Virus record (IMG/VR): IMGVR_UViG_3300048447_000249
Location: 1 to 21,484 of that record
Strand: one strand, 5' to 3'
Origin: a virus
DNA length: 21,484 nucleotides
The position numbers and the translations under genes are program-made. Position 1 is the first letter of the stretch. Every line of letters starts with the position of its first letter. The notes beneath the pieces are model-generated. The model worked only from the letters and a program-made list of their open reading frames with translations. It ran no database searches and was not told the origin of the DNA. Shown here piece after piece: positions 1-20,096 of the stretch.

Positions 1-543
1 GAATTAGATGGTGATAGTGATGATATTACAGAAGGAGCTACTAATGTATTTTTCACAAATGCTAGAGTAGATACTAGATTAAATACAAAAACAGTAGTTA
101 GTGGTTCACAACAGATATTAAACTTAGTATCGGTTGATGAAGATAACTTCGCATCCAATTCAGCAACTAAAGTACCAACTCAACAATCTGTAAAAGCATA
201 TGTAGATTCTAAAGCACAATCACAAGATAATACAGATGAAATAACCGAAGGTTCAACAAATCTTTATTATACAGATGCAAGAGTAAAAACAAAATTAAAT
301 GCAGATACGATAGTAAGTGGTTCAACACAAATTACAGATTTAACAACACATAAAGAAACTGTAAGTGGAGCATCTTCATATGCAGTAGACCACAATTTAA
401 GTGAACAATATCCAATAGTACAAGCTTGGAATACTGCTACATCTCAACAAGAAGTACCAGTTTCAATTACTACAAACTCTTCAAATAGAGTTACTGTTGT
501 ATTCTCAACAACATTTGCTGGAATTATAATCGTAAAAAAATAA
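1..543 (+). CDS. Tail fibre protein, C-terminal part (5' end outside window)
   Basis: An open frame enters from the left edge and ends at a TAA at 541-543, giving 180 residues with no start codon visible. It holds two copies of the collagen-free fibre repeat typical of marine T4-like phages, of the form ITEGxTNxxxTxARVxTxLN followed by a VSGSxQI turn, spaced 72 residues apart. The last residues form a hydrophobic beta strand ending in GIIIVKK, a common end for a trimeric fibre tip. It probably forms part of a tail fibre that contacts the host surface. Its neighbours, a glycosyltransferase and a Hint/FN3 protein, fit a host-recognition block. The family is clear from the repeat. The exact fibre type (long, short, side) cannot be told from this fragment. 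Confidence 0.8.
   Translation, partial: ELDGDSDDITEGATNVFFTNARVDTRLNTKTVVSGSQQILNLVSVDEDNFASNSATKVPTQQSVKAYVDSKAQSQDNTDEITEGSTNLYYTDARVKTKLNADTIVSGSTQITDLTTHKETVSGASSYAVDHNLSEQYPIVQAWNTATSQQEVPVSITTNSSNRVTVVFSTTFAGIIIVKK
22..336 (+). repeat. Two-copy fibre repeat, 216-nt period
   Basis: Copy 1 is at 22-120 and copy 2 at 238-336, in the same reading frame and 216 nt apart. Both encode [DE]-I-T-E-G-[AS]-T-N-x-x-[FY]-T-[ND]-A-R-V followed by a T-V-S-G-S or T-I-V-S-G-S segment. Similarity is clear at protein level but diverged at DNA level, so this is an old structural repeat of the fibre shaft. More copies probably lie upstream of the window. Confidence 0.75.
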
Positions 544-1554: not shown

Positions 1555-2925
1555 ATGGCAACACTTTCATCGGGAGATACACTTAGTTTAAATGGTTTAG
1601 CAGGAGCCGCGGGAGTAACACAAAATTCTAATGTTTCATTGGGAAGTAGGTACAATGGAATTGCTCAAGCAGGTTCTAATATTTCGTTATCAGATTTTGC
1701 AATCGATTCCGTTGGTTCAATTAGTGGTTATACCTATGTGGTAGAAAATACTGATGAAACTTATACTCTTGGTTTTGGTGGAGCAGGTACACAATTCGCA
1801 TCCTCAATTTCTAATAAAAGTAGTAATTTTACTTGGTCAATATCACCAGCATTTAATTCGAGTCCAAACTCAGGTGGTTATATAACATTGGCTCCAGGAA
1901 CAGATATAGGAGGATATGGTTCGAATAGCACAGATGCAACTCTGAATATACGAGTTGGACAAATGAATCCCCAACAAGGAGATTGGAACACTAGTGTTAA
2001 CCAAAGGGATATATCTTCAACTTTATCACATACTTTATCAGTAACATTTGCTGATGGATTCAATGACCATGCAACTGATTATAACGTTGCAAAAACAAAA
2101 ACAGTTTACTCGGTAGATACTTATGATGGAAATACTTCATTATGTTTAACTGCTGATTCACCTGTAACACTTGCAGATGGAACTATTGTGGAAGTAGGTG
2201 ATTTAGAAGAAGGTGATATATTAAGTGGATATTCTTTAGAGGGATTATCTGATGATGAATATACATATGATTTTTATTCGTGGAATACTAGTAGTCTTGA
2301 AACCACCGCTAAAGATGTAGAGGTAGTAAATGTAATTTACTCATTTGCAGAAAGATATTATTCAATAAACAATGGAGAAGTAACAGCAACAGCTGAACAT
2401 CCGTTGTTGGTAAAAGATTCTACGGATGATGAATATAGATTCAAACAGATAGCATCTATTATAGTAGATGATAAATTAATAAAAGGAGATGGTACTGAAG
2501 TTTCGGTAACATCAAATAGTTTAGTAGACGAAACCGTAGAAATTGTATCAATTGATGTTGAAGAACAAGATACATATTTAGTAAATGGATATATAACTCA
2601 CAATAAAGGTGGAAATACTCATAGTGGAGATTTAGGTGCACCTGGTAAGGTTAGTGGAGTACAATTTAAAGCTGGTTCAGAAGGTAAAGTAATAGAATGG
2701 TCTGTTCCAACTTCATCAGGTACCACAGGTATTACGGCATATCATGTACAAATAGATAATAACTCTGATTTTAGTTCACCAACCGTAAGTTATGATGAAT
2801 GGTCAACTACTGAAATATCAATACATGGACATAGTTTAGCTTCTGGTACTAATTATATTAGAATAAGAGCTATAGACCATGGATTATATGGAGCTTATAG
2901 TGATAGTTTTAGTTTTACTGTATAA
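1555..2925 (+). CDS. Virion/fibre-like protein with inserted Hint (intein-like) domain and C-terminal FN3 domain
   Basis: The 456-residue protein has three parts. Residues 1-196 are Ser/Gly/Asn-rich and beta-like, as in phage structural proteins. Residues 197-350 form a Hint domain: Cys197 in SLCLTADSPVTLADG (block A), T279-A-E-H282 (block B TxxH), and YLVNGYITHN ending at H349-N350 (block G). The residue after Asn350 is Lys, not Cys/Ser/Thr, so classical splicing is not expected. This matches bacterial intein-like domains that cleave or ligate by other routes. No homing endonuclease is inserted, because the domain is only 154 residues. Residues about 358-456 look like a fibronectin type III domain, starting APGKVSGVQF and ending YSDSFSFTV. 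It lies 12 nt behind the glycosyltransferase gene and is preceded by AGGAAA. Its position next to a fibre gene suggests a surface-exposed virion protein. The exact location is unknown. Confidence 0.75.
   Translation: MATLSSGDTLSLNGLAGAAGVTQNSNVSLGSRYNGIAQAGSNISLSDFAIDSVGSISGYTYVVENTDETYTLGFGGAGTQFASSISNKSSNFTWSISPAFNSSPNSGGYITLAPGTDIGGYGSNSTDATLNIRVGQMNPQQGDWNTSVNQRDISSTLSHTLSVTFADGFNDHATDYNVAKTKTVYSVDTYDGNTSLCLTADSPVTLADGTIVEVGDLEEGDILSGYSLEGLSDDEYTYDFYSWNTSSLETTAKDVEVVNVIYSFAERYYSINNGEVTATAEHPLLVKDSTDDEYRFKQIASIIVDDKLIKGDGTEVSVTSNSLVDETVEIVSIDVEEQDTYLVNGYITHNKGGNTHSGDLGAPGKVSGVQFKAGSEGKVIEWSVPTSSGTTGITAYHVQIDNNSDFSSPTVSYDEWSTTEISIHGHSLASGTNYIRIRAIDHGLYGAYSDSFSFTV
2143..2604 (+). other. Hint / bacterial intein-like domain coding region
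   Basis: This part of the previous gene encodes residues 197-350. All residues needed for N-S acyl shift (Cys197 with block B Thr279 and His282) and for Asn cyclisation (His349-Asn350) are present. The +1 nucleophile is replaced by Lys351 in HNKGG. The domain is in frame with the host protein on both sides, and no endonuclease motif is present. Predicted chemistry is cleavage at one or both ends, possibly with transfer to an external nucleophile. Confidence 0.75.
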
Positions 2926-3004: not shown

Positions 3005-3310
3005 ATGGCAAAAGAAATTAAGTTTACAAAAGAAGAAGTTTCACAGATTGCACAGATAAGAAAAGATGCATCTGATATATTTACTCAACTTGGACAATTA
3101 ACAATTGAGAAAGATAGAAGAATTAAAGAAATCGAAAATATCGAATCTAATTTAATTAACAAACATCAACAATTACAACAATCAGAGCAATCCTTGTTTG
3201 AAACACTTAATAAAAAATATGGTGATGGAAATTACGACCCACAGAGTAATGTATTTATTCCAACTCCACAAGAAAAACAAAAAACTGAAACTAAAGAAGA
3301 AGAAAAATAA
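3005..3310 (+). CDS. Small coiled-coil protein, unknown
   Basis: The 101-residue product is mostly charged helix. Residues about 8-70 show heptad-like spacing of Ile/Leu (FTKEEVSQIAQIRKDASDIF, then an IEKDRRIKEIENIES segment), which predicts a coiled coil. The C-terminal tail from about residue 75 is Pro/Lys/Glu-rich and likely disordered. No signal peptide or catalytic motif is seen. It has its own TATATTTATA motif and is followed by another one before the sheath gene, so it is probably expressed late with the tail genes. It could be a minor virion component or an assembly factor. I do not recognise the family. Confidence 0.7.
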   Translation: MAKEIKFTKEEVSQIAQIRKDASDIFTQLGQLTIEKDRRIKEIENIESNLINKHQQLQQSEQSLFETLNKKYGDGNYDPQSNVFIPTPQEKQKTETKEEEK

Positions 3311-3380: not shown

Positions 3381-5738
3381 ATGGCAGAAAAAATTGTATC
3401 ACCTGGTGTATTTACGAGAGAAAATGACCTTTCTTTCTTAGCACAAGGGATTGGAGAAATCGGAGCAGCTATAATAGGACCTACAAAAAAGGGACCTGCT
3501 TTCGTACCAACCGTTGTAAGTACACAATCGGAATTTGAAGAAATATTCGGTACACCTGATGGTTCTTACTATACAGGATATACCGTACAAAATTATTTAA
3601 GAGAAGCTGGAACTGTTACTATCGTAAGAGTTGGAAACATTGGAGGATATTCTCATGTTTCACCAATCGCTATTAAAGTTAGTGGTTCAGATGGAGGAAT
3701 CAAAGTAATTGGTTCTTTATTTGCAACACATAACGGAGATGAAAGTATTGGATTCCCAACTACATCAATAGATGCAGCGGATTCCGCATCAGCATTCTCA
3801 ATTAGTGGTTCATTTGGAGAACTATCAGCATCTGTACTACCAAGTGCAGGTAATGATTTATCTGATGTATTTGGAGAAAATGCAAGAGGTTCTAAAAGTG
3901 CTTATTCATATGTTTATTATGAAAATGAAGCTATCAACCAAACAAACTACTTCACAAGTGGTTCTAAGGTAATCTTAGAAACTTTACCAACACAAGACTT
4001 TGGTCAAGATATACAACATGCATCCACTCCTTGGATAAAATCGCAGTTGATTTCTGGTGAAAGACATGATTTGGTAAAATTCCATACTATCGGTGATGGT
4101 TCAAACTATAACAAAGAATTTAAAATTTCAGTATTCGGTGTAAAAGCAGCTGGTTCAAATAATTCTACTGATTATGCAACATTCTCAATCGCAGTTAGAG
4201 GATACTCTGATACAAATAAGAGACCAGTAATCTTAGAAACATTTAACAATGTAAACCTAGACCCTGCATCACCAAACTATATTAAGAAAGTAATTGGTGA
4301 TAGAAATGTTGTTATCGATACTAATGGTAAACAAACTGAAAATGGTGATTATGTAAATCGTTCTAAGTATATTAGAGTTGAATGTAAACCAGAAGGTTCG
4401 TTCCCAATAACAGCAGGACCATTCGGACATGGTGCTTACATTAATCCAATTATAGCTGGAAATCCTGCTGAGGTACCAGCAGTGGTATTCTCAACTGGTT
4501 CAAAAGATAATAGTGCATCTAATGGTGTACAATATAGTGGTATTGATTTAGAAACAATCAATGTTAAACTAGATAACAATCATTATTTAAATCCAACACC
4601 AACAGGTGCTACCGCAGGTGCAAATACTGTATTTGCATTCGATGCTACCGTAAATATTAATAACGGAACACATGCATTTGGATTTGAACTAACTGGTTCA
4701 GCCGCTTCGGATGTTAATAAGAGACAATTCGTATTAGGATTCCAAGGTGGATTTGATGGTGTATCTCCAACTACTGAAAAAGCACTTGCTGGTTCATCAG
4801 CAAACTTTGGTAGTGGTAACACACAAGGATTTAATTGTTCAACTTCTACAGCAAGTGGTTCAGTTGCATATGTTAAGGCAGTTGCTTCTGTATCTAACCC
4901 TGATGATTTTGATATTAACTTAGTATCAGCACCTGGTATTGTTCGTAGACATCACTCTTATGTATTTGATAAGATTGTTGATATGGTAGAAGCTAGAGAA
5001 GATGCTTTCTTTATCGGTGATGTTGTAGGTGTAACTTACAATAGTGGAACTGGACAAGTTTCAACTGATAGTATATCACAAGCTGTTGAACAGGCAGGTA
5101 ACTTAGATAGTAACTATGTAGGTACATACTACCCATGGGTTAAAACAATCGATTCAAGAACGAATAGATTAACATCTGTTCCACCATCAGTATTGATGCC
5201 TGGAATATATGCTGGAAATGATGCAATCGCCGCTGAGTGGTTTGCACCAGCAGGTTTAAACAGAGGTGGTATCGTAGGTGCTGTTTCTGTATTAAACAGA
5301 TTAACACATGCGGAACGAGATACTCTATATGAAGGAAAAGTTAATCCAATCGCTGCTTTCCCTGGTGAAGGTATTGTTGCATTTGGACAGAAAACTTTAC
5401 AAGATAGAGCATCTGCACTTGATAGAATTAATGTAAGAAGATTAATGATTAAGGTTAAGAAGTACATTGCTTCTACATCAAGATATTTAGTATTTGAACA
5501 GAATACGGCTCAAACAAGAGGTAGATTCTTAAATACTGTAAACCCTTATTTAGAGGGAATACAACAAAGACAAGGACTTTATGCATTTAGAGTGGTGATG
5601 GATGAATCAAACAACACACCTGATGTAATCGACAGAAACATATTGGCTGGACAGATTTTCCTACAACCAACGAAAACTGCTGAATTCATCGTGTTAGATT
5701 TCAACATCTTACCAACTGGAGCTTCGTTCTCGGCATAA
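3381..5738 (+). CDS. Contractile tail sheath protein (T4 gp18-like)
   Basis: The 785-residue product has the family's N-terminus: VSPGVFTRENDLSF, then a GEIGAAIIGPTKKGPAFVPT strand-loop that leads into FEEIFGTP and a YLREAGTVTIVRVG segment. The C-terminal domain includes RRLMIKVKKYIASTSRYLVF, where sheath subunits interlock, and ends FIVLDFNILPTGASF. It is somewhat longer than T4 gp18 (659 residues), with the extra length in the variable middle region (about 120-500) that usually faces outward on the sheath. Sheath subunits form the outer cylinder that contracts to drive the tube through the host envelope. An AAGGAGT ribosome binding site precedes the ATG, and the gene lies behind a late promoter motif and directly before the tube gene, the normal order. 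Confidence 0.97.
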   Translation: MAEKIVSPGVFTRENDLSFLAQGIGEIGAAIIGPTKKGPAFVPTVVSTQSEFEEIFGTPDGSYYTGYTVQNYLREAGTVTIVRVGNIGGYSHVSPIAIKVSGSDGGIKVIGSLFATHNGDESIGFPTTSIDAADSASAFSISGSFGELSASVLPSAGNDLSDVFGENARGSKSAYSYVYYENEAINQTNYFTSGSKVILETLPTQDFGQDIQHASTPWIKSQLISGERHDLVKFHTIGDGSNYNKEFKISVFGVKAAGSNNSTDYATFSIAVRGYSDTNKRPVILETFNNVNLDPASPNYIKKVIGDRNVVIDTNGKQTENGDYVNRSKYIRVECKPEGSFPITAGPFGHGAYINPIIAGNPAEVPAVVFSTGSKDNSASNGVQYSGIDLETINVKLDNNHYLNPTPTGATAGANTVFAFDATVNINNGTHAFGFELTGSAASDVNKRQFVLGFQGGFDGVSPTTEKALAGSSANFGSGNTQGFNCSTSTASGSVAYVKAVASVSNPDDFDINLVSAPGIVRRHHSYVFDKIVDMVEAREDAFFIGDVVGVTYNSGTGQVSTDSISQAVEQAGNLDSNYVGTYYPWVKTIDSRTNRLTSVPPSVLMPGIYAGNDAIAAEWFAPAGLNRGGIVGAVSVLNRLTHAERDTLYEGKVNPIAAFPGEGIVAFGQKTLQDRASALDRINVRRLMIKVKKYIASTSRYLVFEQNTAQTRGRFLNTVNPYLEGIQQRQGLYAFRVVMDESNNTPDVIDRNILAGQIFLQPTKTAEFIVLDFNILPTGASFSA

Positions 5739-5795: not shown

Positions 5796-6284
5796 ATGGC
5801 AGAAGTATTAGAATTTAATGATATGTTTTATACCAACTTTGAACCAAAGATGCAAAACAGGTTCATCATGGAAATAGATGGTATTCCTTCATATCTTATA
5901 AAAGTAGCTACAAGACCAACAATTTCATTTGAAACTGTTACCTTGGACCACATCAACGTTAAAAGAAAACTTAAAGGAAAAGGTGACTGGGCTGATGTTA
6001 CCATGACACTTTATGACCCAATTGTACCATCAGGTGCACAGGCAGTTATGGAGTGGGTAAGAACTTCTCACGAATCAATTACAGGTAGAGATGGATATGC
6101 GGATTTCTATAAGAAAGATATCCAATGTTATCTATTAGGACCTGTTGGTGATAAGATTGAACAATGGACTCTTAAAGGTGCATTTATCCAATCAGCAAAC
6201 TTCGGTAGTTTAGATTGGTCATCAAATGAACCAACTTCAATCGAGTTAACATTATCATATGATTATGCTATCCTAGAATTCTAA
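5796..6284 (+). CDS. Tail tube protein (T4 gp19-like)
   Basis: The 162-residue product matches T4 gp19 (163 residues) in length and pattern. It opens with a short FNDMFYTNFEPKMQNRFIME segment leading to a beta strand, has the central VKRKLKGKGDWADVTMTLYD strand typical of the tube fold, and ends with SIELTLSYDYAIL. Hexamer rings of this protein stack to form the rigid inner tube of the contractile tail through which DNA passes. TTAGGAGAAA precedes the ATG. It follows the sheath gene by 57 nt and is closed by a strong terminator. Confidence 0.96.
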   Translation: MAEVLEFNDMFYTNFEPKMQNRFIMEIDGIPSYLIKVATRPTISFETVTLDHINVKRKLKGKGDWADVTMTLYDPIVPSGAQAVMEWVRTSHESITGRDGYADFYKKDIQCYLLGPVGDKIEQWTLKGAFIQSANFGSLDWSSNEPTSIELTLSYDYAILEF

Positions 6285-16242: not shown

Positions 16243-16998
16243 ATGAGTTATTTATCACAAGAAGAAAAACAACAACTACAATTTGACTGGAGATACAAAG
16301 GAGTATCTATTTTAAATCTACTAACCGAGAGTGAAGTAGATTCATATGCTGAGGAGTTAGAACGAATCAGAATTCAACGACAAACTAATGATACTGAAAA
16401 ACAATGGGGAGAATATGACCCATTTATGCATCCACATAAACAATCTTCTAAGTTATATGAATTGATGAAACATCCTAAAATTATAGAAGCTTGTGAATTT
16501 GTAATGGAATCTAAAATATTTGCAGTACAATCTTGGGCATACTTTAAACCACCAGGTCAATTAGGAAGAGACCAACATCAAAATATATTTTATACACAAT
16601 GTAATACAAATGAAATTGTAAACATTTCTCTTGCTTTTGATAACCACGACCCCAATAATGGTTCTGTTTGGTATTTAGAAGGTTCACATAAGTTAGGTAG
16701 ATTACCAATAGAAATAGATGAAGAAAGAGCTGGTTCCAATCCAAAGAATTGGAGGAATGAGAGAGGTAAACCATGTATATTACCCAATGACCATAACTTT
16801 ACACATATAGATGGATATCTTAGAAAAGGACAGGTTGCATTATTACATTCAAATGTAGTACATGGTTCAGAACCAAATACTTCAAAACGATTCAGAAGAG
16901 CGTTTTTAACTGGTTATATCAAAGAAGGTGCAAACTTTGCATCAGGTAACCATATGAAAAGAGAACCAATCGATGTGGGTTCTGCTAAAATTTCTTAA
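16243..16998 (+). CDS. PhyH-family Fe(II)/2-oxoglutarate dioxygenase-like protein, altered metal motif
   Basis: The 251-residue product matches phytanoyl-CoA dioxygenase-like proteins, which are common in marine phages: a GVSILNLLTESEVDSYAEEL start, a GQLGRDQHQNIFYTQ segment, NISLAFDNHDPNNGSVWYLE with GSH, and LLHSNVVHGSEPNTSKRFRR. In active enzymes the metal is held by H-x-D plus a distal His. Here the proximal motif is H112-Q-N114, so the usual Asp is Asn, while the distal H207 and the Arg that binds 2-oxoglutarate (R216, R218 or R219) are present. Activity is therefore uncertain. Substrates of phage PhyH proteins are mostly unknown; hydroxylation of a protein, sugar or nucleotide is possible. 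It follows the tail module and has no clear promoter, so is likely expressed late. Confidence 0.85.
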   Translation: MSYLSQEEKQQLQFDWRYKGVSILNLLTESEVDSYAEELERIRIQRQTNDTEKQWGEYDPFMHPHKQSSKLYELMKHPKIIEACEFVMESKIFAVQSWAYFKPPGQLGRDQHQNIFYTQCNTNEIVNISLAFDNHDPNNGSVWYLEGSHKLGRLPIEIDEERAGSNPKNWRNERGKPCILPNDHNFTHIDGYLRKGQVALLHSNVVHGSEPNTSKRFRRAFLTGYIKEGANFASGNHMKREPIDVGSAKIS

Positions 16999-18757: not shown

Positions 18758-18846
18758 AAAAGATATTAAAAGAAATGTACCTTGGTATTAAGATATCAAC
18801 AGAAATGTATCTTAGTGGTAAAGCGGGTATGTGGGGTAAATGGTAA
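18754..18846 (+). CDS. 30-residue miniprotein, possible leader peptide
   Basis: ATG at 18754 overlaps the preceding stop (ATGA), and the frame ends at TAA 18844-18846, overlapping the polymerase start at 18840. The product is 30 residues, basic, with Met/Tyr/Trp residues (MKKILKEMYLGIKI, ending MWGKW). It fits exactly between two genes and overlaps both, so it may serve mainly to pass ribosomes on to the polymerase start. A functional peptide is also possible. Nothing in the sequence indicates a function. Confidence 0.5.
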   Translation: MKKILKEMYLGIKISTEMYLSGKAGMWGKW

Positions 18847-20096
18847 TAGTAGAAACTAATAAAGAGAAAGACCAGTTTCTTGAATATTGGAATAACGAAC
18901 AATCAACGATTATTCCTATTTGGGAAGATTTGGAAAGACATCCTATGAATAATAGGTTGTCATTTTTGTATGTCCAATTCCGAAATCTTGATTTTATACT
19001 TCCATTCAACCATAATGATTGTGAAAAGTTAGAAATAGATTTATCAACCTCGAATCAACCAAAATGGATTTGGAACAAAAAAGGTTTCTTACAAACCGAT
19101 ATTAAGGTAAATAATCTAAAAGATGTGCAAACTTCTTTATTCTTTGAAAACTTTAAGATATACCCCTTCGGTGATAAATTAGAGGTTCTAACGAGTTTTT
19201 ATATCCGAATGGGTATAAGAGATGATTTAGGTAAAAGTATCTCTATAATGAAGTGGGGTGAGGTACTACGAGGTATTGTTGATGAGTGGGATATAAAACA
19301 TACAAACAATTGGGTGGATGAAACGATGATTCCTATCCTTTCAGATATCGAGAGAAAAGGGATTCAAGTCGATAGGGAAAAATTTTTTGATAGATGGCCA
19401 ACTCACCAAAAGTCATTACTTTTAGAGAATACATTCACCGAGTACAATCCATACACGATTACATCAAGACCTTCCAATAGACATTTAGGTATCAATTATG
19501 GTGCTCTTAATAAAAAAGATGGTAGTAGGGATGTATTCGTTCCAAGAAAAGGAAAACTCTTCTTACAATTCGATTACGATGCTTATCATGTCCGAATTAT
19601 TGGTAAGTTAATTAAATACAAACTTCCAAGTGGTTCGGTTCACCAATGGTTGGCAGACCAATATGGTTGTGATTATGGGGAATCCAAAGGAAGAACGTTT
19701 AGAATCTTATATGGGGGAGTATCCGATGAAGATAGAAATATACCATTCTTTGATAAAGTAGATAAGTTTATTAGAAAGATGCAAGAAGAGGCGGTGAAAA
19801 ATGGTTACTTACAAACTCCAAAAGGAAGAAAGATTCCATTGGGGTGGATTGAAAAACCTAACGCACAAAAGTTCTTCAACTATATTCTCCAAGCGACGGA
19901 AACTGAGTTTAATATTGAGGTACTGAGTAAACTTAAGAAGTTACAACTTCCTCTTCCTATATTATACACTTATGATTCATTCTTATTTGAATTCGATGAT
20001 TCTGAGGTAGAAGAAATTAAATTGGTTAAATCCGTTCTCGAAAGTTATGGATTTCCTGTCAAAGCAGATTGGGGTAGTGATTATGGAAAAGTTTAA
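18840..20096 (+). CDS. Compact family A DNA polymerase, divergent active site
   Basis: The 418-residue product has the polymerase motifs of family A in order. Motif A is FLQFDYDAYHVRIIGKL (D245, matching Pol I Asp705). Motif B is SKGRTFRILYGG (K283, F287, Y291, matching Lys758, Phe762, Tyr766). Motif C is ILYTYDSFLFEF (D379, matching Asp882). SRPSNRHLGINYGA, GYLQTPKGRKIPLG and FNYILQATETEF lie where expected. Differences: His250 takes the place of the Glu710 steric gate, and motif C is Y-D-S rather than H-D-E. Klenow fragment has about 605 residues and T7 polymerase 704, so this is very short. The first 160 residues may be a degenerate 3'-5' exonuclease domain (D30-L-E32 could be a DxE remnant; later exo motifs are not clear). 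It probably replicates the phage genome. The start overlaps the preceding miniprotein. Confidence 0.88.
   Translation: MVIVETNKEKDQFLEYWNNEQSTIIPIWEDLERHPMNNRLSFLYVQFRNLDFILPFNHNDCEKLEIDLSTSNQPKWIWNKKGFLQTDIKVNNLKDVQTSLFFENFKIYPFGDKLEVLTSFYIRMGIRDDLGKSISIMKWGEVLRGIVDEWDIKHTNNWVDETMIPILSDIERKGIQVDREKFFDRWPTHQKSLLLENTFTEYNPYTITSRPSNRHLGINYGALNKKDGSRDVFVPRKGKLFLQFDYDAYHVRIIGKLIKYKLPSGSVHQWLADQYGCDYGESKGRTFRILYGGVSDEDRNIPFFDKVDKFIRKMQEEAVKNGYLQTPKGRKIPLGWIEKPNAQKFFNYILQATETEFNIEVLSKLKKLQLPLPILYTYDSFLFEFDDSEVEEIKLVKSVLESYGFPVKADWGSDYGKV

Follow-up and report, generated by a model that had tools for sequence, protein, structure and literature searches.

A Phage Probably Cuts, and May Re-Join, a Hint-Bearing Virion Protein by Unusual Chemistry

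Ordinary splicing domains require Cys, Ser or Thr at the residue that follows the domain (+1). According to the literature, Cys1 of a Hint domain forms a thioester with the N-terminal flank, and the terminal Asn cyclises and thereby cuts the C-terminal junction (PMC4031507, PMC7664689). The A-type bacterial intein-like domains (BILs), which end in His-Asn and have no nucleophile at +1, mostly cleave (PMC4031507, PMC7664689), and for those with His-Asn a degree of splicing is described, in which the freed amine attacks the thioester (PMC4031507). For BIL2 of Tetrahymena, splicing via a lysine isopeptide bond has been reported, the lysine being located in the following ubiquitin-like domain, as has conjugation of the N-terminal flank to different substrates (PMC8616854). 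In the open-access literature, no report was found on the protein family described here, or on any Hint domain with lysine at +1.

The stretch of DNA analysed (the window), a virus fragment of 21.5 kb, contains the tail module of a myovirus. It opens with the C-terminal part of a tail-fibre/structural protein (1..543, plus strand), recognised by matches to tail-fibre and structural PHROGs and by conserved order. The next gene (547-1542) is conserved, has no credible match in Pfam, PHROG or NCBIfam and is of unknown function; by eye only, its product is glycosyltransferase-like. The Hint gene (1555..2925, plus strand) is followed by an ORF of 101 aa (3005-3310), the tail sheath gene (3381..5738, plus strand; domain and PHROG matches, conserved order), the tail tube gene (5796-6284) and a gene for a baseplate-hub-like protein. 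An earlier, sequence-only reading had placed a structural protein next to the fibre block, which agrees with the fibre upstream and the sheath and tube downstream, except that the gene at 547-1542 lies between the fibre and Hint genes. The order fibre, gene of unknown function, Hint gene, small ORF, tail sheath and tube is kept among homologous loci. Among 311 loci with a homologue (some contigs being represented repeatedly), 273 have the sheath, 273 the 101-aa ORF and 251 the 547-1542 gene; of the 144 loci that extend at least 3 kb downstream, 139 contain the sheath. Because the gene order of the tail module is conserved, synteny supports a role of the Hint protein in the virion or in tail assembly. 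Elsewhere in the window, a gene of the phytanoyl-CoA dioxygenase (PhyH) family (16243-16998; E-value, 3e-22) was observed in the tail-gene region, and a 418-aa ORF (18840-20096), a short or partial polymerase, matches no more than the C-terminal part of a DNA polymerase PHROG.

The Hint gene encodes a virion-module protein of 456 aa, in which an N-module, a Hint domain, a lysine at +1 and an FN3-like domain follow one another, an architecture common to all intact homologues (all coordinates below are on the plus strand). The N-terminal part (residues 1-196; 1555..2142) consists of a short N-terminal motif (GDTLSLN..L, residues 1-50) and a beta-rich domain, and its C-terminal end carries the conserved residues D188-x-Y190...L196. 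This part belongs to no database family and has no match to any phage record or PHROG. A fold search returned immunoglobulin-like matches only, all insignificant, and no confident PDB fold, and the likeness of the first 50 residues to the 'SG.ISL..I' N-terminal motif of phage Hint proteins L152 and L269, seen by eye, is not significant. The Hint domain comprises residues 197-350 (2143..2604), and the residues on which the sequence-only reading was built were all recovered where it had placed them. Cys197 (2143..2145) is Hint residue 1, the nucleophile of the N-S acyl shift; it corresponds to position 1 of the TIGR01445 model and is invariant in 83 representatives. Block B is represented by T279-A-E-H282 (2389..2400), with H282 and P283 invariant and T279 nearly so, and the C-terminal splice-junction pair His349-Asn350 (2599..2604), where Asn cyclisation is expected, is invariant at both positions. 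The +1 residue is Lys351 (2605..2607). With 154 residues, the domain has no space for an endonuclease, as had been claimed. Lys351 is followed by a flexible Gly/Asn/Ser linker (residues 352-362; 2608..2640) and the C-terminal FN3-like domain (2641..2922).

The Hint assignment, and with it the earlier description of an intact-looking, BIL-like domain that lacks the usual +1 nucleophile, is borne out by three lines of evidence. NCBIfam model TIGR01445 (intein_Nterm) matches residues 197-286 over its entire length (model positions 1-83 of 83) with 27.1 bits, above its cut-off of 24.5 bits. A profile built from 25 homologous Hint domains matches solved BIL and intein structures with E-values of 5e-7 to 3e-4, the best of them being Tetrahymena BIL2 (E-value, 5e-7). 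A Foldseek search with the AlphaFold model (35 sequences; mean pLDDT, 81.6; pTM, 0.50) placed BIL2 first (E-value, 9e-10), followed by CthBIL4, inteins and Hedgehog 1AT0. The Pfam Hint models all matched below their cut-offs; PT-HINT (PF07591) reached 17.2 bits against a curated cut-off of 27.7, and a background search with this model found few members. The protein carries a genuine Hint-superfamily domain, with the Hint fold and blocks A, B and G, and the TIGR01445 score, profile matches and Foldseek matches rule out a chance resemblance. The model has low-confidence stretches beside both junctions, at residues 191-194 and 353-360 (pLDDT < 50 in the latter), and the linkers there are probably flexible. 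As for the FN3 domain that had been read at the C-terminus, Pfam fn3 exceeds its cut-off (25 bits) in homologues L005 (31.7 bits) and L032 (32.2 bits), the model has beta strands in this region and FN3 structures are among the Foldseek matches, but the C-terminal part of the window's own copy does not reach the fn3 cut-off.

BIL2 of Tetrahymena thermophila BUBL1 (PDB 6Y75, 6TMM; crystallised with the terminal Asn replaced by Ala) resembles the window's Hint domain in Cys1, the block-B His and the ...NG..HN end and is its best match in both fold and sequence profile, yet the two share only about 20% identity. Unlike the window's domain, it sits between ubiquitin-like domains in a ciliate and has His as its block-F residue. 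A check of its sequence ruled out a lysine at +1 in BIL2 itself: this residue is Met, and the nucleophilic lysine lies elsewhere in the next domain. With A-type BILs, e.g., CthBIL4 (PDB 2LWY), the window's domain shares the Hint fold, the HN end, and the lack of both Cys/Ser/Thr at +1 and an endonuclease, and both are fixed in a surface or structural protein without a housekeeping role. It differs from them in its phage tail-module context and in a +1 residue that is always Lys, whereas +1 is varied in the sampled cellular Hints. Class 1 mini-inteins (KlbA, 2JMZ; gp41-1, 6QAZ) have the same fold and blocks A, B and G; the window's Hint, in contrast, has no Cys/Ser/Thr at +1, has Ser in place of the block-F Asp, and is neither mobile nor located at a conserved site of an enzyme. 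The related Hint domains of PHROG 38766 ('virion structural protein') and of tail proteins annotated with an 'intein domain' (Erwinia phage Y3, Dickeya phage AD1 and phage NCTB) likewise belong to tail-module proteins of myoviruses or jumbo phages. In these, however, the Hint is C-terminal with 7-10 residues behind it, +1 is Thr or Ala, there is no FN3 domain and the N-terminal part is different.

Homologues were gathered from viral contigs with whole-protein patterns and with profiles of the Hint domain, the N-module and diverse phage Hints. With the window included, they amount to 130 distinct full-length proteins (83 once thinned at 90% identity; pairwise identities average 53%, with a minimum of 35%) from a large group of environmental phages, which are myoviruses, many of them marine. 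N-module, Hint and FN3-like domain are present in all 130. The few incomplete homologues are at contig ends, apart from one contig (L067:3834-4511, also sampled as L216) whose reading frame is interrupted within the Hint, by a sequencing error or in a pseudogene. Conservation is higher in the Hint (58%) than in the N-module (50%) and the FN3 domain (45%). Leu196, Cys197, His282, His349, Asn350 and Lys351 belong to the invariant residues, which take in the catalytic positions as well as the two junctions. A tree of 37 Hint domains places the window's family in a clade of its own (support 100/99), all members of which have Lys at +1; the deeper branches are weakly supported, and BIL2 is found elsewhere on a long branch. 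An intein-like invader would leave empty sites among homologues. As searches of the homologous loci with N-module or FN3 profiles found no Hint-less homologue, the Hint domain appears to be fixed rather than such an invader, and the presence/absence polymorphism of class 1 inteins was not observed. Judged from the invariant Lys at +1, the lack of Hint-less homologues and the conserved gene order, the domain is best described as a domesticated, obligatory, A-type-BIL-like Hint: the C-terminal His-Asn is invariant and a nucleophilic Cys/Ser/Thr is absent at +1.

The sequence-only reading had proposed that conservation of the lysine be examined, with homologues bearing Ser, Thr or Cys at +1 as the observation that would speak against its interpretation. 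Residue 351 is Lys in 130/130 distinct homologues and in 83/83 of those below 90% identity, and never Arg; its codon in the thinned set is AAA in 75 sequences and AAG in eight. No other lysine in the protein is invariant; the remaining lysine columns also contain Arg, Gln or Ser. An artefact of search patterns that contain HNK is ruled out by three homologue sets obtained with patterns lacking the junction, in which 104/104 distinct proteins have Lys at +1, and by paired scans of 2.9 million viral contigs. In these scans, the motif D-T-[YF]-x-x-N-G-[YF]-x-[TS]-H-N (12 codons, degenerate at the DNA level) was followed by AAR (Lys) at no fewer than 119 loci, and never by a codon starting with C, G or T, nor by an AC, AG or AT codon; the scans thereby covered every +1 codon but AAY (Asn). 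Thus, Ser, Thr and Cys were found at +1 neither among the 130 homologues nor in the contig scans. The pattern argues for a lysine fixed under purifying selection rather than for decay, and since conservation is absolute and Arg never occurs, it suggests that Lys351 is a functional acceptor and not the trace of a lost nucleophile. The earlier label 'splicing-incompetent' is doubtful, since an invariant lysine has taken the place of the missing nucleophile.

In other Hint domains, +1 varies. In the cellular Hints found in a sample of about 570 genomes, this position is occupied by Gln, Asn, Cys, Ser, Gly or Ala, and by Lys in one protein (L253/L259); this bacterial-genome protein (L259:211-2262) has at least two Hints with a Gly-rich linker between them, the first followed by Lys (HNKYGDD). 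Phage relatives have Thr (Y3, AD1), Ala (two proteins of NCTB), Val (L269) or, in C-terminal and tandem Hints, Ile. Other phage Lys+1 cases are L072, L152, one NCTB protein (BN7874_135) and one tandem Hint junction. Hint domains in general thus do not share Lys at +1, which marks the window's clade rather than the Hint fold.

The reading preferred here, with a rough probability of 0.45, is that the Hint domain excises itself and that the N-terminal part is passed to an amine of Lys351. As judged from the conserved catalytic residues, Cys197 would form a thioester with the N-terminal part, Asn350 would cyclise and cut the chain before Lys351, and the N-terminal part would move either to the alpha-amine freed by this cut or to the lysine side chain. 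In the mature virion protein, the 17-kDa Hint would be gone and the N-module would be linked to the FN3 domain, and some of the product may be cleaved only. Calculated without Met1, the masses are 48.26 kDa for the precursor, 20.12 kDa for the N-terminal part, 17.00 kDa for the Hint, 11.17 kDa for the C-terminal part, 31.28 kDa for N- and C-terminal parts joined, 37.11 kDa for N-terminal part plus Hint and 28.16 kDa for Hint plus C-terminal part. Since attack by the alpha-amine requires no particular side chain at +1, a lysine that is invariant and never replaced by Arg suggests either that the side-chain amine takes part or that the new N-terminus has a specific requirement. The preferred reading is also favoured by the invariance of the catalytic residues and of Leu196 and Lys351 beside the cuts, the probably flexible linkers at both junctions, the higher conservation of the Hint and its presence in every intact N-module homologue, and the partial splicing described for A-type BILs with His-Asn. 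By analogy, the lysine isopeptide reported for BIL2, the closest solved fold, also speaks for self-excision. On the other hand, phage Hints with Ala, Thr, Ile or Val at +1 indicate that Lys is dispensable for Hint function generally, BIL2 has no lysine directly after its Hint, and known BILs mostly cleave rather than splice. In addition, the block-F Asp of inteins is Ser/Thr in the family (column 332) and the block-F His is Asp339; these replacements may slow or change the chemistry, and because of them reaction rates cannot be guessed.

In an unlikely, more specific form of this self-excision, the side-chain amine of Lys351 would take the N-terminal part from the Cys197 thioester before or together with Asn cyclisation, so that the two halves would be linked by an isopeptide at Lys351. 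What speaks for such BIL2-type acceptance is the conservation pattern. The Lys+1 Hints L072, L152 and NCTB BN7874_135 fit the side-chain acceptor less well: only 3-10 residues follow the Hint, which leaves little to splice on, and the last of them lacks Cys1. The isopeptide form is the novel reading, the Lys+1 Hint as such being a variant within the known BIL/Hint kind. A normal bond at Lys351 would give the separate tryptic peptides TVYSVDTYDGNTSLK and GGNTHSGDLGAPGK, whereas an isopeptide would block trypsin there and leave one branched peptide with the alpha-amine of Lys351 free. If active, the domain would represent self-processing permanently built into a phage tail protein, and acceptance by Lys351 would extend Hint chemistry from a thiol or hydroxyl to the amine of a defined lysine, with no ATP or partner enzyme. 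The isopeptide form, if true, would be a splicing class in which an amine replaces the +1 thiol or hydroxyl, used in building phage tails, and could serve as an isopeptide-ligation tool.

The main rival to self-excision with transfer to Lys351 is cleavage only, which comes close to the earlier suggestion of a released N-terminal part and is possible but somewhat doubtful: the Hint would cut one or both junctions and release the N-module and/or the FN3 domain, with Lys351 setting the rate of C-cleavage or providing the new N-terminus of the FN3 piece (e.g., an N-degron or a binding residue). This would agree with the mostly cleaved products of BILs without a +1 nucleophile (PMC4031507, PMC7664689) and with the C-terminal Hint relatives, which, with 3-10 residues past HN, need no ligation. 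Cleavage alone, however, leaves a lysine that is never arginine in 130 proteins unexplained, +1 being variable in other Hint families. Even so, it would account for a widespread, unnamed protein that environmental phages encode next to their tail sheath. It is improbable that the N-module is transferred from the Cys197 thioester to a different virion protein or to the host surface, where an amine or some other nucleophile would accept it in a Hedgehog-like or BIL2-like conjugation. The conjugation reported for BIL2 (PMC8616854), the place of the gene in the tail module and the C-terminal Hint proteins of phages, which would fit N-part transfer, favour such a conjugation, but the invariant lysine in cis is a nearer acceptor. 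Still less probable is an inactive Hint that serves the fibre or baseplate as a rigid spacer, with the conserved residues holding the fold. The replaced block-F Asp and His would suit such a spacer; the catalytic residues and both junctions, however, are invariant over 35-53% pairwise identity, and Lys351 is not part of the Hint fold but of a linker where model confidence falls. A mobile intein in decay, having lost its +1 nucleophile and endonuclease, would explain the intein-like motifs and the missing endonuclease, but is hardly credible and can be dismissed, given the lack of Hint-less alleles among the homologues examined, the Lys fixed at +1 under purifying selection and the separate 100/99 clade.

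Several further arrangements were observed among phage Hint proteins. The Hint-like protein NCTB BN7874_135 (L243:3891-4352) is a stand-alone protein of 154 aa ending in ...LVHNKVD, and its gene is flanked by two genes for Hint-bearing or tail-fibre proteins. The C-terminal Hints of phages and prophages (L072:3825-5483, L152:5506-6468, L269, L292 and L329) end 4-10 residues past His-Asn and are often preceded by a poly-Gly stretch; L152 lies in the tail-fibre region of a Shewanella hanedai contig. Other phage proteins carry two to four Hints in tandem, mostly with 2-6 residues between them, as in L301:1627-4317, whose junctions read ...LVHN-IPPK-CFVAGT...LVHN-KF-CFMPDQ...VSHN-TFR-CFTGDT... (further loci: L261, L280, L291, L295, L298, L302, L307, L308, L318, L321, L331, L333-L336 and L338). 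The first Hint lacks Cys1, in L301 the final one has no HN end, and the whole looks like an undescribed multi-Hint array.
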